In this document: one piece after another, positions 29,340 through 33,845 of the stretch
How the letters are laid out: every line of letters starts with the position of its first letter
Numbering within the stretch: position 1 is the stretch's first letter
NCBI GenBank assembly: GCA_030672285.1
Contig: DAOVGS010000044.1
Coordinates: forward strand, 1 to 34,839
Direction: 5' to 3'
Origin: Hadesarchaea archaeon
GTDB taxonomy: Archaea; Hadarchaeota; Hadarchaeia; Hadarchaeales; Hadarchaeaceae
Length of the DNA: 34,839 nucleotides
Translations under genes and position numbers: made by a program
The notes under the pieces: generated by a model
What the model was told of the DNA's origin: nothing
What the model saw: the letters and a program-made list of their open reading frames with translations, nothing else
The model's database searches: none

Positions 29340-30530
29340 ATGGATGCGAGCGATGGGGTGAGGAACCCAGATGTGGAAAGGAGCGCAAGTGCAGCGTTAC
29401 CCCTCACCTCTCTCCCCAGAGAACAAGCTGGGTTCGAGAGTACGCTCGCGAACATAGCGGAGCGGATACGTGAACAAGAGGGGCAAAGGCGAAAAGTTGC
29501 GGGGGCGCTCGCTGGGCTAAGGGACGTAACTTTGGAAGGCGTGGAAGAAATTATCGAACCTTCCCTCGTGAAACTGATTGAGCAAGATGCGCTCACGAAC
29601 CTGACGGTGGCGGGCGTTGACGGTGGGATGCTTGAGCAGCAGCTCCATGGCCTCGACCTCATCCTCTTGCGGGCGGTTGTTGCGATATTTCACTACCGCG
29701 AAGCTGGGCTGGAGTGGGCCGAGTACTTCCCAAGCGAAATGCCATTCCCCCGCCTGATCGATGTCGCGGAGCCGCTGGATGCCAGAGAATTTGAGCTCCT
29801 TGCCGGAATGGAACGTCAGCTAACCGAACTCGAACTCGCGACCGAGACGATTCAAGCAAATGAAGTGAAACTCCTGTTACTGGATGGCTCTGTAGTGCCC
29901 CAGTACATCGATCGCTTCCCCCACAACCAAAGCTTGCTTGAGCGCTACCACAAGCTCATCAATGCGTATACGAAGCTTTACAAGACCTGCGCGGGGTCGG
30001 GAGCCCTCCTTGCTGGCGCGGTCAAGGACAGCCGGGGCGGGCGCTTCATCGACATCCTCAGGCGCAAAGTGCTCCCAAGCTTAGGTGGCCTCGGGCTCAA
30101 GCAAAAGGAGCTGGAGGTCCTCGAGCGCTCGCGGGACACCGTTCTCCTCGACCATGTGCTCGGGGTGGGGGAGCGAACCTTCACCTTCCGCTACGTCGAG
30201 AAGCCTGCAAGCTATGTACTTCGCGACCTCGGTGGGTGGGCGGCGAGGGTTTATGCATTTTACCTCAAGACCGTGCCATTTGACCGCCCGCTGCGCGTGG
30301 AGTTCGTCGATTTCGTGGGCGAACCTGCTGGAACCGCCGACCGCATCGCCTCGCTCATCTACGCACTTTCATCCCACCACGATGCCTTCGGCCTTCCCTC
30401 GGTGCTCATCGAGGCGGATGCGTGCGCCCGCTTGGTCGAGGAGGACTTGAGCATCGTGCGCGACAGCATTGCGGATCGCCTCGGGCCCTCGGCATTGCTC
30501 GACCTGAGGCGGCACCGGAGACCATTCTGA
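29340..30530 (+). CDS. nurA: NurA nuclease-domain protein
   Basis: VAGVDGGMLEQQLHGLDLILLRAVVAIFHY, LLLLDGSVVPQYIDRFP, YVLRDLGGWAARVYAFYLKTVPFDRPLRVEF, adjacent to HerA. Confidence 0.85.
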   Translation: MDASDGVRNPDVERSASAALPLTSLPREQAGFESTLANIAERIREQEGQRRKVAGALAGLRDVTLEGVEEIIEPSLVKLIEQDALTNLTVAGVDGGMLEQQLHGLDLILLRAVVAIFHYREAGLEWAEYFPSEMPFPRLIDVAEPLDAREFELLAGMERQLTELELATETIQANEVKLLLLDGSVVPQYIDRFPHNQSLLERYHKLINAYTKLYKTCAGSGALLAGAVKDSRGGRFIDILRRKVLPSLGGLGLKQKELEVLERSRDTVLLDHVLGVGERTFTFRYVEKPASYVLRDLGGWAARVYAFYLKTVPFDRPLRVEFVDFVGEPAGTADRIASLIYALSSHHDAFGLPSVLIEADACARLVEEDLSIVRDSIADRLGPSALLDLRRHRRPF

Positions 30531-30539
30531 GGTGAGCGA

Positions 30540-32057
30540 GTGGAGTTAGGGACCGTGGTCGCGACCGTGGATGGGCCCTCTCCGAGCAAGTTCACCTTCG
30601 TGGTCACCGAGAACGGATGCAGGATGCCGGTTCGACAGGGGCAGTTCGTGGAGGTTGAAACAGAGGAGGGTCTGGTGATCGCATTCGTCACCAACCTACT
30701 CAAAACTAACCGGTACTTCATGCGGGCTGAATCGGTCAAGGAATACGAGCGGGGAGGCAGGCCCCTGACGGCGATCTTTCCCGCCGACCGCTGGGAGTAC
30801 CTCATAGCCGAAGCCCAAGCGCTCGGGGTCCAGGGCGAAGGCGGGCTCGAGCGAACTACTTTCCCGCCATCACCTGGGCAAAAAGTGTGCGAAGCTAGGT
30901 CAGAGGCGCTAACACGCTTTCTAGGGTTAAATCCGGACGATGGGGTGGAGCTGGGCAAGCTCAAGCATCACGAGCTACCCGTGAAGCTCGACCTCACGAG
31001 GCTGTTGCGCAAACATGTGGCGGTGCTCGCGATGTCGGGAGCGGGCAAGTCTCACGGGGTGATGGTGATGATCGAGGAGCTACTCGACCGCTTACCCGAG
31101 CGTGGGCGGCCTGCGGTCGTCGTGGTGGACGTCCATGGCGAGTACGTTGGGTTGGCCGAAAGCTTCCCTGGTCGCGTGAGTATCGTCAAAGGGAGGGAAC
31201 TCAGGATAGGTGTGCCGAACCTGAGCTCGTATCAGTTCAAGGAGTTTATGTCCGACATGTCCGGGATGCAAGCGCGCGAGCTCCAGCGGGTGCTTGGTGA
31301 GCTTCGAGCCGAGATGCGGGCGGGCAAGGGGCCGTTCGGACTGGATGAGGTCATCTCGCGGATTGAGGGGGACGAGGACATTCATAAGCAGCTCCAGCAG
31401 GCTTTGCTCGGGTGGCTCTTCGACCTCCGCTCGCTCGGTGTCTTCGACCGCGCCGATCACCCGAACTGGGAAAAAGTGGTTGAACCAGGAAAGGCTGTGG
31501 TGGTCGACCTCAGCGATGTGGTCAGCTTGAGGAAGAAGCAGATGCTCGTGGCGTACGCTGCGCGGAGGCTGTTCAACGCACGCAAGCGTGGACGCGTGCC
31601 CCCGTTCGTGCTCTGCTTGGAGGAGGCCCATCAGTTTTGTCCGTCGAGCGAGTCCAAGCGTGCGGCGATTTCTAGGTCAATAATCGAAACGCTCGCTCGC
31701 GAGGGTCGCAAGTTTTACGCCTCGCTCGTGCTCATCTCCCAGCGCCCGGTGAGGCTCTCGACGACCGTGTTATCGCAGGCTAACACAAACGTCATCCTGC
31801 GGGTCACCAACCCCTATGACCTCGAGCACATCAAACAGTCTTCGGAGGCGATAACGGGGGAGGTCGCGGACATGATCTCCTCGCTGCCCGTGGGTGAGGC
31901 GTTGATTGTGGGTGAGGCCGTCAACCACCCAATCTTCGTGAAGGTTAGACGAAGGCGCTCGCGCGGGTCGGCGCACGGTGCCAGTTTGGAGGAGGTTGCG
32001 AAAGAATTTGAGCGGCGCAGCGGTCAAGGGCGCGAGGATGCGAAAGCGTTCATGTAA
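30540..32057 (+). CDS. herA: HerA-type ATPase (bipolar helicase/translocase)
   Basis: Walker A AMSGAGKSHGVMVMIEELL, VVVVDVHGEYVGL, FVLCLEEAHQFCP, LVLISQRPVRLSTTVLSQANTNVILRVTNPYDLEHIKQSSEAI. Confidence 0.92.
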   Translation: MELGTVVATVDGPSPSKFTFVVTENGCRMPVRQGQFVEVETEEGLVIAFVTNLLKTNRYFMRAESVKEYERGGRPLTAIFPADRWEYLIAEAQALGVQGEGGLERTTFPPSPGQKVCEARSEALTRFLGLNPDDGVELGKLKHHELPVKLDLTRLLRKHVAVLAMSGAGKSHGVMVMIEELLDRLPERGRPAVVVVDVHGEYVGLAESFPGRVSIVKGRELRIGVPNLSSYQFKEFMSDMSGMQARELQRVLGELRAEMRAGKGPFGLDEVISRIEGDEDIHKQLQQALLGWLFDLRSLGVFDRADHPNWEKVVEPGKAVVVDLSDVVSLRKKQMLVAYAARRLFNARKRGRVPPFVLCLEEAHQFCPSSESKRAAISRSIIETLAREGRKFYASLVLISQRPVRLSTTVLSQANTNVILRVTNPYDLEHIKQSSEAITGEVADMISSLPVGEALIVGEAVNHPIFVKVRRRRSRGSAHGASLEEVAKEFERRSGQGREDAKAFM

Positions 32058-32064
32058 GTTTGGG

Positions 32065-32238
32065 CTATTTCGAGAGCCTAATTGGCTTTTCAATCCAGCA
32101 TTCCGCAGGCAAGCCGTGGATGATGATTCTCTGATATCTGTGTGCACCTTTCGCTATCAAGATTGATTTGGTGCTCTTCCGGTACTCGCACCTGATCCTC
32201 TCGCCCACGATGCTGTCCCCAATGTCCCTGAGGATCAT
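32065..32238 (-). CDS. 57-aa small ORF coupled to an RHH gene (not in ORF track)
   Basis: Translation MILRDIGDSIVGERIRCEYRKSTKSILIAKGAHRYQRIIIHGLPAECWIEKPIRLSK. Its ATG overlaps the stop of the upstream RHH gene as ATGA (32238-32235). Confidence 0.6.
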   Translation of the reverse strand: MILRDIGDSIVGERIRCEYRKSTKSILIAKGAHRYQRIIIHGLPAECWIEKPIRLSK

Positions 32239-32561
32239 TTAACATCCTCAACTTTCTTTTCGCCCCAGAGCTCGCGGATGATGTCGGCTACTAATCCATA
32301 ATCTAGCCTCAGTTCATCAGCTATGTCGCTAGGGTATGCGACCTCTTTCTTCCGGAGATAATCTAATATCTCTCGCTTCGCCTTCTCCCTGGGCACGTCT
32401 CGCAACTTGATGATCTTCATCTCTCCGACCTCCTCGATGAAGCGCCTGATAGACTCCCTTATCACCTCGTTTCTCGAACGGTACCCCAACTTGGCGCGCA
32501 TGTTGTCAATCTTCCTTACTTCCTCAATCGGCAAGGAGATAGGGATGGTTGCCCGTTTCAT
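32235..32561 (-). CDS. Ribbon-helix-helix (CopG-like) regulator with C-terminal helical/wHTH-like extension
   Basis: MKRATIPISLPIEEVRKIDNMRAKLGYRSRNEVIRESIRRFIEE (RHH), then LRKKEVAYPSDIADELRLDYGLVADIIRELWGEKK. Start 32561, TATA-like TTTATACA upstream. Confidence 0.82.
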   Translation of the reverse strand: MKRATIPISLPIEEVRKIDNMRAKLGYRSRNEVIRESIRRFIEEVGEMKIIKLRDVPREKAKREILDYLRKKEVAYPSDIADELRLDYGLVADIIRELWGEKKVEDVK

Positions 32562-32639
32562 GGCATCAAAATCATTATTTGCATACGATTGTATAAAGCT
32601 TATGCTTCCCTCGACCATGCGCGTCTACCTCTGATTGTA

Positions 32640-33392
32640 TCAACTGCGTGGGTTCGCGACCAGCAGCAGCGCTCGCTCGCATAGCTCGCGCACGACCTCC
32701 GGCTGCAACACGTGCTGCCCGAGGTACTCGCGCAGGAGCGGCGTCAGATCCCATGTCACGTACCTGAAGCTCAGCCCTCCGGGATTTGCGCACGCTTGGC
32801 TCAGCTTTCGCACAGCCGTCGTCGTCGCCCGCAGACTATCACCGCGCTGTTTTCGAAGCTCGTCGACCAAGCCCTCGAACGCATGCCCGTCGTTCAAGTT
32901 TTTGTAGATGTAGCTACCCACATCGCCCGCCAGCTCGCGGTAGAGCTCGAGCGCCTCGCGGAGCGCTGACCAGTCGGAGTGCGCGTCGAGCTGCCAAAGG
33001 GTCCGCGCCCCCACGTGCTCCCGCAGGCGCTCGACGACTCCCTCATCGAAAGTCAGCAAGGGCAGCCGAATGTGCGCAGCCAGCATCAGGGCTCGCATGT
33101 CAGTGAGCGGGACATTTCGCTCCACCTCAAAAAGCAGGCGGCGCGATAGTTCATCGAGCAGCTCCGGCAGGTAGACGACGAGTAGCTCTCGGTCGCGAAC
33201 GAACTGGCTCACCAAGCTGTACCCAAGGGTCCTGCCCCGGACGGCGATCAGCTTGTCGCGCGCGAGCCAGCTGTAGGTTGCTGCAGGTAGATAGAGCTCA
33301 CCTCCATCCAGCAACTGCTGCGCCCGCTCGAAGCTAGCGCGGTCTACCAGCACGCTCACATCGCATATGGCTCCAAATCCCCGCGCTGTCAT
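32640..33392 (-). CDS. PIN-like domain protein with an uncharacterised C-terminal domain
   Basis: ICDVSVLVDRASFERAQQLLDGGELYLPAATYSWL...NVPLTDMRALMLAAHIRLPLLTFDEGVVERL follows PIN-fold acidic-residue spacing. Start at 33392 preceded by CTTATAAAG; the longer track ORF (to 33746) runs antisense through another gene. Confidence 0.65.
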   Translation of the reverse strand: MTARGFGAICDVSVLVDRASFERAQQLLDGGELYLPAATYSWLARDKLIAVRGRTLGYSLVSQFVRDRELLVVYLPELLDELSRRLLFEVERNVPLTDMRALMLAAHIRLPLLTFDEGVVERLREHVGARTLWQLDAHSDWSALREALELYRELAGDVGSYIYKNLNDGHAFEGLVDELRKQRGDSLRATTTAVRKLSQACANPGGLSFRYVTWDLTPLLREYLGQHVLQPEVVRELCERALLLVANPRS

Positions 33393-33491
33393 CCGTCCCG
33401 CCAAGCCTTTGCGCGGAGGTTCTTTATAAGGGAGAAAAATTACCCCATAGCAGAATTTTAAGCGCGAGTTGTGATACCAAGTTGGTAAATT

Positions 33492-33845
33492 ATGAGAAAA
33501 ATCAAGATAGTGTGCCGCGACTTTGAGGTCGAGGCTGAGCTGCTGGAAAAGCTGTGCCTCAATACCTGCGACGCAATTTGGAAAGCTTTGCCCTTCGATG
33601 CAGAAGTAGAAATCTGGAAGGAGGAGGTCTACTTCGAGATTTCGGTAAAGGTTCAACCAGAAAACCCAACGCCCAAAACTCAATCGGGTGATGTCTCCTA
33701 CTGGCCCCAAGGCCCGGGCTTCTGCATCTTCTTCGGCCGCTCGCAACCCGTCAGCCCCGTGAACACCTTCGCTCGGATAAAAAGTGGTGTTGAAAAATTT
33801 AGGGCCGCACGAACGGGGGATCGAATAACCGTGCGCCGAGCCTAA
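33492..33845 (+). CDS. Cyclophilin-like fold protein
   Basis: MRKIKIVCRDFEVEAELLEKLCLNTCDAIWKALPFDAEVEIWKEEVYFEI...GDVSYWPQGPGFCIFFGRSQPVSPVNTFARI is characteristic of the archaeal cyclophilin-like family. Confidence 0.82.
   Translation: MRKIKIVCRDFEVEAELLEKLCLNTCDAIWKALPFDAEVEIWKEEVYFEISVKVQPENPTPKTQSGDVSYWPQGPGFCIFFGRSQPVSPVNTFARIKSGVEKFRAARTGDRITVRRA

Follow-up and report, generated by a model that had tools for sequence, protein, structure and literature searches.

A candidate new family of archaeal gene pairs encoding an RHH-wHTH protein and a 57-residue basic protein

A pair of overlapping genes in a Hadarchaeota MAG, encoding an RHH-wHTH protein and a 57-aa basic protein termed p57, is a candidate for a new family that recurs in several archaeal lineages. 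The window, meaning the whole stretch of DNA that was analysed (34,839 nucleotides), lies in contig 47 of a 0.96-Mb assembly (G000). Judged from its sequence, the pair may constitute a self-regulating, mobile, type II toxin-antitoxin-like system, a reading whose chance we place just short of even.

Organization of the locus

Three co-directional minus-strand genes had been described here in a first-pass annotation, the second and third overlapping as ATGA, and ORF reading confirmed both their positions and the overlap. The features of the region are as follows:

33392-32640 (32640..33392), minus strand: PIN-fold gene, 250 aa by ORF reading
32561-32235 (32235..32561), minus strand: RHH-wHTH gene, 108 aa, with RHH at about residues 5-45 and a winged-helix-like domain at about 58-104
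32238-32065 (32065..32238), minus strand: p57 gene, 57-aa basic protein, its ATG overlapping the RHH stop as ATGA
33422..33429, minus strand: TTATAAAG, a TATA-like box (consensus match only) of the PIN gene, situated between this gene and the divergent cyclophilin-like one
32577..32597, minus strand: TTTATACAATCGTATGCAAAT, TATA box and probable operator of the RHH-p57 cassette, with the dyad ATAC-N4-GTAT, from comparison of upstream regions
29340-32057, plus strand: NurA and HerA genes, convergent with the three minus-strand genes
33492-33845: cyclophilin-like gene, divergent from the PIN gene

The neighbours of the three-gene stretch also include a gene for a Trm5/TYW2-type methyltransferase. 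The HerA encoded at 30540-32057 is a divergent form that scores far below the NCBIfam archaeal HerA cut-offs.

p57 is a real gene paired with RHH-wHTH genes

In 394 archaeal genomes 23 copies of p57 were identified, comprising 15 copies in 11 Hadarchaeota genomes and 8 copies from other archaeal lineages. The latter were in 8 further genomes retrieved by a profile built from 13 Hadarchaeal copies, with linkage not a search criterion. All of these (23/23) lay directly 3' of an RHH-wHTH gene on the same strand, most commonly with an ATGA overlap, the partner matching its profile in the wHTH part only in one case (G275) and having a broken frame in another (G018). Two informative comparisons gave p57 dN/dS values of 0.115-0.125, a third being unusable with four changes only. 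Because p57 has homologs in many archaea and these dN/dS values, it is a real gene under purifying selection. A chance ORF was ruled out by the same two observations, and a Hadarchaea-only oddity by the copies in other lineages; structured RNA in place of protein genes was also discarded, with no Rfam match. Sequence identities of p57 and of the RHH protein diverged together (Mantel r 0.85), none of 5000 permutations being as high and the best of them reaching 0.55. Between the analysed DNA and locus L003, dS was 0.03 for p57, 0.26 for the RHH gene and 0.41 for the PIN gene; the sites are few, and the low p57 value possibly reflects local recombination or gene conversion.

The first-pass annotation recognised no family for p57, and this was borne out by searches of Pfam, NCBIfam, PHROGs, PADLOC and PDB sequences, none of which returned a match. 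Similarly, no paper describing the pair of RHH-wHTH and p57 was found in an open-access subset of the literature, where absence is not proof. p57 is a candidate founding member of an unnamed family whose members were seen only 3' of wHTH-bearing genes. The predicted structure, of low confidence (pLDDT 58), was all-beta, which is probably the fold of p57, and comparison by Foldseek gave no usable fold match (best E 1.6). RelE-like proteins and small SH3-like barrels were compared with p57 by eye, and any likeness was given no weight.

The RHH-wHTH protein

The earlier description of the 108-aa protein as RHH with a wHTH-like tail was upheld. The RHH domain is significant (PF01402, RHH_1, E 4.6e-8, above its cut-off), and the C-terminal wHTH, although it matches its family only weakly (HTH_24, E 0.02), aligns across relatives. 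The closest solved structure to the N-terminal RHH domain is NikR (2bj1, E 0.003). The likeness is confined to this domain, however, as the C-terminus is wHTH-like here and a metal-binding ACT-like domain in NikR, and NikR family models were far below cut-off for the 108-aa protein. Full-length RHH-wHTH matches were all accompanied by p57, save for a decayed copy in G015, and an interrupted copy in G362 still has a p57-like frame behind it. The RHH-wHTH protein is presumed to act as an autorepressor and as the antitoxin or partner of p57.

The PIN-fold gene and the RHH-p57 pair are very probably separate units

The first-pass annotation treated all three genes as a candidate unusual toxin-antitoxin or regulatory module and suggested that their joint conservation be checked. 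The RHH-p57 pair lies directly behind the PIN gene in three genomes: G000, which holds the analysed DNA, G008 (L003) and G007 (L005). Decayed versions follow the PIN gene in two others, namely G015 (L007), where the RHH half and p57 are lost, and G018 (L081, G018:C42), where the PIN gene carries an in-frame TAG, the RHH gene a 2-bp deletion and frameshift, and p57 is intact; the PIN and RHH defects of G018 represent either pseudogenes or MAG sequencing errors. In other relatives the genes occur apart, an outcome that the first-pass annotation had named as refuting its module. The PIN gene is present without RHH or p57 in at least seven genomes (G010, G013, G014, G016, G017, G019 and G021), with nothing recognisable in their place, and the RHH-p57 pair is present without this PIN gene in 19/23 copies (11/15 Hadarchaeal and 8/8 from other archaeal lineages). 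At G014:C35 (L006:6800-7350) a short ORF and a stretch resembling the 3' half of a tRNA take the place of the cassette between PIN and HerA, and ARAGORN found no whole tRNA that could serve as an insertion site between these genes. Direct reading of the window shows a 78-nt gap between the PIN and RHH genes and, in front of RHH, a TATA box of its own, so that the two genes are probably not one operon.

These data make it very probable that the PIN gene and the RHH-p57 pair are two separate units lying side by side. A three-gene module with PIN as toxin, RHH-wHTH as antitoxin and p57 as accessory would account for the common strand and adjacency in G000, G007 and G008, for the decayed versions in G018 and G015, and for the closeness of the PIN fold to VapC. 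It is, however, difficult to reconcile with either gene set occurring without the other, with the TATA box before RHH, and with a PIN gene limited to one family when RHH-p57 is spread over several archaeal lineages. Such a VapBC-like module is highly improbable, being largely refuted by the distribution of the genes, and the earlier suggestion of an unusual toxin-antitoxin or regulatory unit survives for RHH and p57 but not for the three genes together.

In VapBC systems the PIN toxin is ~130 aa long, carries four conserved acidic residues and is encoded directly after a co-inherited antitoxin. The present locus is similar in that PIN-fold and RHH proteins adjoin. It differs in that the PIN gene is upstream of the RHH gene, has its own promoter and is found without the RHH gene; in that its product is 250 aa long, with an extra ~110-aa domain and no evident helix-2 glutamate; and in that the RHH protein is paired with p57 rather than with PIN. 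The departure from classical VapBC noted earlier, with PIN first and much larger, was correctly identified.

The PIN-fold protein

The Pfam match of the 250-aa protein to PIN was below cut-off (E 0.14). An AlphaFold model (pLDDT 70, pTM 0.73) matched AF1683 and VapC structures in Foldseek with probability up to 1.00, a best E of 1.6e-3 (none passing E 1e-3) and TM by target of about 0.48-0.62. These results support a PIN topology for residues about 1-138 in the predicted structure, in agreement with the first reading of the protein as PIN-like. In alignment D11, D98 and D115 fall on PIN catalytic positions, D115 not being kept in one relative, whilst the usual helix-2 glutamate was not evident in the alignment, the AlphaFold model being weak at this point (residues 37-60). 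The product is probably a nucleic-acid-acting PIN-fold protein, in which only three of the customary four acidic residues can be made out. The postulated extra C-terminal domain was modelled as a mixed helical domain (~110 aa, residues about 140-250) without known relative among PDB sequences or in Foldseek. Sequence search gave no solved relative of the PIN protein. Membership of a known defence system was rejected for all three genes, as PADLOC gave no match for PIN, RHH or p57.

The PIN gene was found in 14/27 genomes of the order, and a profile search of the 394 archaeal genomes placed it only in one Hadarchaeota family, with one weak match elsewhere. At the loci read it adjoins the cyclophilin-like gene and mostly HerA too, its usual site being between the cyclophilin-like gene and HerA-NurA. 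It is apparently an old, lineage-specific, vertically inherited gene with its own promoter.

Mobility of the RHH-p57 cassette

Reading of neighbouring proteins placed Hadarchaeal copies away from the PIN gene beside aromatic-amino-acid (aro/trp) genes in G014, G005, G013 and G008, with other p57 sites beside primase PriS (G018), topoisomerase VI (G016) and hypF (G018); a copy on contig 41 of G000 is near a different PIN_3 protein. Some genomes contain 2-3 RHH-p57 copies. The pair in G116, probably cultured Ferroglobus placidus, is 68% (RHH) and 78% (p57) identical to the contig-11 pair of G018, which is itself 37% (RHH) and 33% (p57) identical to the pair of the analysed DNA; HerA of the analysed DNA and its best G116 match share 33% identity only. 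Several copies per genome, unrelated sites, close copies in distant lineages and decaying copies together form a pattern that fits a mobile, laterally spreading cassette.

The scattered copies, and a small basic protein encoded behind an RHH regulator, would also suit a pair left behind or carried by an archaeal virus or other mobile element, the RHH protein then acting like an anti-CRISPR-associated regulator of a small effector, p57. An IMG/VR contig (L199:3-360, IMGVR_UViG_3300048057_000129) carries a wHTH tail and a 64-aa p57-like gene adjoining apparent HK97-type portal, protease and capsid genes, but near position 400 its G+C jumps to 0.66 from a value of about 0.5, and the contig may be chimeric. 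Furthermore, p57 was absent from 50,697 phage records and 72,556 plasmid records, and no integrase or viral genes were recognised around the chromosomal copies examined. With one doubtful viral contig set against these records, phage or plasmid carriage was rejected, and we consider origin as viral or mobile-element cargo improbable.

Promoter and candidate operator of the pair

Regions upstream of RHH genes share a TATA box with ATAC/GTAT words after or overlapping it. These form an ATAC-N4-GTAT dyad in the pair type of the analysed DNA and three direct repeats, of ~10 and 9 bp spacing, in the contig-41, G015 and G116 types. Across 16 upstream regions 43 such words were observed against 18 expected, and 0/2000 shuffles gave above 32, an enrichment to which the TATA box itself contributes and in which related rows are non-independent. 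The G315 upstream region had no ATAC/GTAT enrichment. With up to 3 mismatches allowed, the 32577-32597 operator occurred only once in its genome. The ATAC/GTAT repeats over the TATA box are probably an operator for autorepression.

Possible function as a toxin-antitoxin-like pair

In the preferred reading as a toxin-antitoxin-like pair, the RHH domain of the first product would bind the ATAC/GTAT repeats that cover its own TATA box, thereby repressing the RHH-p57 pair. The C-terminal wHTH would hold p57, encoded by the second, overlapping gene, as the constant wHTH-p57 pairing suggests; p57 would be a small basic effector, kept silent while bound, and its target would probably be RNA or the translation machinery. 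Two features of type II systems are present, namely small, co-directional and often overlapping paired genes (all 23 copies, ATGA being common) and a patchy distribution with horizontal mobility. The short, overlapping genes, one of them encoding an RHH protein, fit properties of the kind by which new type II systems were predicted (PMC2701414). Gene order, overlap, an RHH regulator, a candidate operator of its own, mobility and decay are all consistent with a toxin-antitoxin pair, a reading we hold tentatively and almost in balance. Against it stand the intact p57 beside a frameshifted RHH gene in G018, unless that frameshift is a sequencing error, the absence of p57 from the phage and plasmid records, the share of the TATA box in the ATAC enrichment, the low-confidence p57 model lacking a fold match, and related wHTH partners that have transmembrane or coiled-coil N-termini and sometimes two p57-like genes. 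No known toxin matched p57 in any library searched (Pfam, NCBIfam, PHROGs, PADLOC).

The pair resembles type II pairs that have an RHH antitoxin, of the RelBE, ParDE, VapBC and BrnTA kinds, in its small co-directional overlapping genes with the RHH product first, its promoter repeats and its patchy, mobile distribution. It differs from them in that the antitoxin-like protein has a wHTH, where theirs have a short disordered tail, and in that p57 falls within none of the known families of toxins. The AbiE antitoxin also has a winged-helix part. AbiE (AbiEi/AbiEii) is described as a two-gene system in which a two-domain antitoxin autoregulates on inverted repeats (PMC7319586). Two genes, a two-domain antitoxin-like first product and promoter repeats, here a candidate operator, are common to both; AbiEii, however, is a nucleotidyltransferase-like toxin and p57 a 57-aa protein.

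A wider wHTH-p57 family

The RHH-wHTH profile search also retrieved proteins sharing the wHTH part only, and behind several of these a p57-like protein of 55-75 aa is encoded. The N-termini of these wHTH proteins look transmembrane (G220), coiled-coil (G226, G268, G225) or short (G206). A wider p57 profile gave 30 copies in 25/394 genomes, the last (G365) being weak, and 30/30 were behind a wHTH-bearing gene; this set was partly gathered through linkage, so that pairing is tested without bias by the 23 copies alone. Because p57 pairing persists behind wHTH genes with differing N-termini, the constant element, at the level of sequence, is wHTH plus p57.

This constancy beneath a varying N-terminal domain would also be expected of an autoregulated, non-toxic pair in which p57 is a small partner of the wHTH domain, be it a co-repressor or a subunit that binds nucleic acid or modulates the protein, and in which one wHTH-p57 core has been combined with various N-terminal input domains. 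Tandem duplication of p57-like genes (L158, L163), the intact p57 next to a broken RHH gene in G018 and the failure to find a toxin fold point the same way. A very patchy distribution, with repeated movement and decay at unrelated loci, would however be unusual for a housekeeping regulator, and the operator was seen solely at its own locus with no wider regulon apparent. We regard the non-toxic pair as a serious possibility, though with the weight of evidence leaning away from it; a co-regulator role for p57 is almost as likely as a toxin role. A little more speculative still is the proposal that wHTH-p57 is the core of an undescribed, many-lineage archaeal system with an exchangeable N-terminus (RHH, membrane or coiled-coil), in which p57 would represent a new family, its members being very small toxins or effectors that bind nucleic acids.

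Genes the size of p57 easily go unannotated, and p57 is absent from the family libraries searched, yet it recurs strictly paired with wHTH in several archaeal lineages. Were p57 a toxin, its size would be very small and its fold possibly new for type II pairs; otherwise it would represent a new class of partner for archaeal transcription regulators. The copy in G116 offers a tractable source of the pair.

Individual loci of the wider set vary in organization. At L159:3731-4402 (G220) the wHTH is fused to an N-terminus resembling several membrane helices and is followed by a 62-aa p57-like gene. L158:3724-5170 (G226) and L163:3-1061 (G268) each encode an uncharacterised 213-aa protein (truncated in L163), a coiled-coil-wHTH protein and two tandem p57-like genes. 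At L157:1745-2577 and L156:2639-3717 (G225) a further gene stands ahead of the wHTH gene: the one in L157 has a weak match to DUF3467 (E 1.4e-4, under cut-off), and the one that precedes the wHTH/p57-like pair in L156 looks similar to it.
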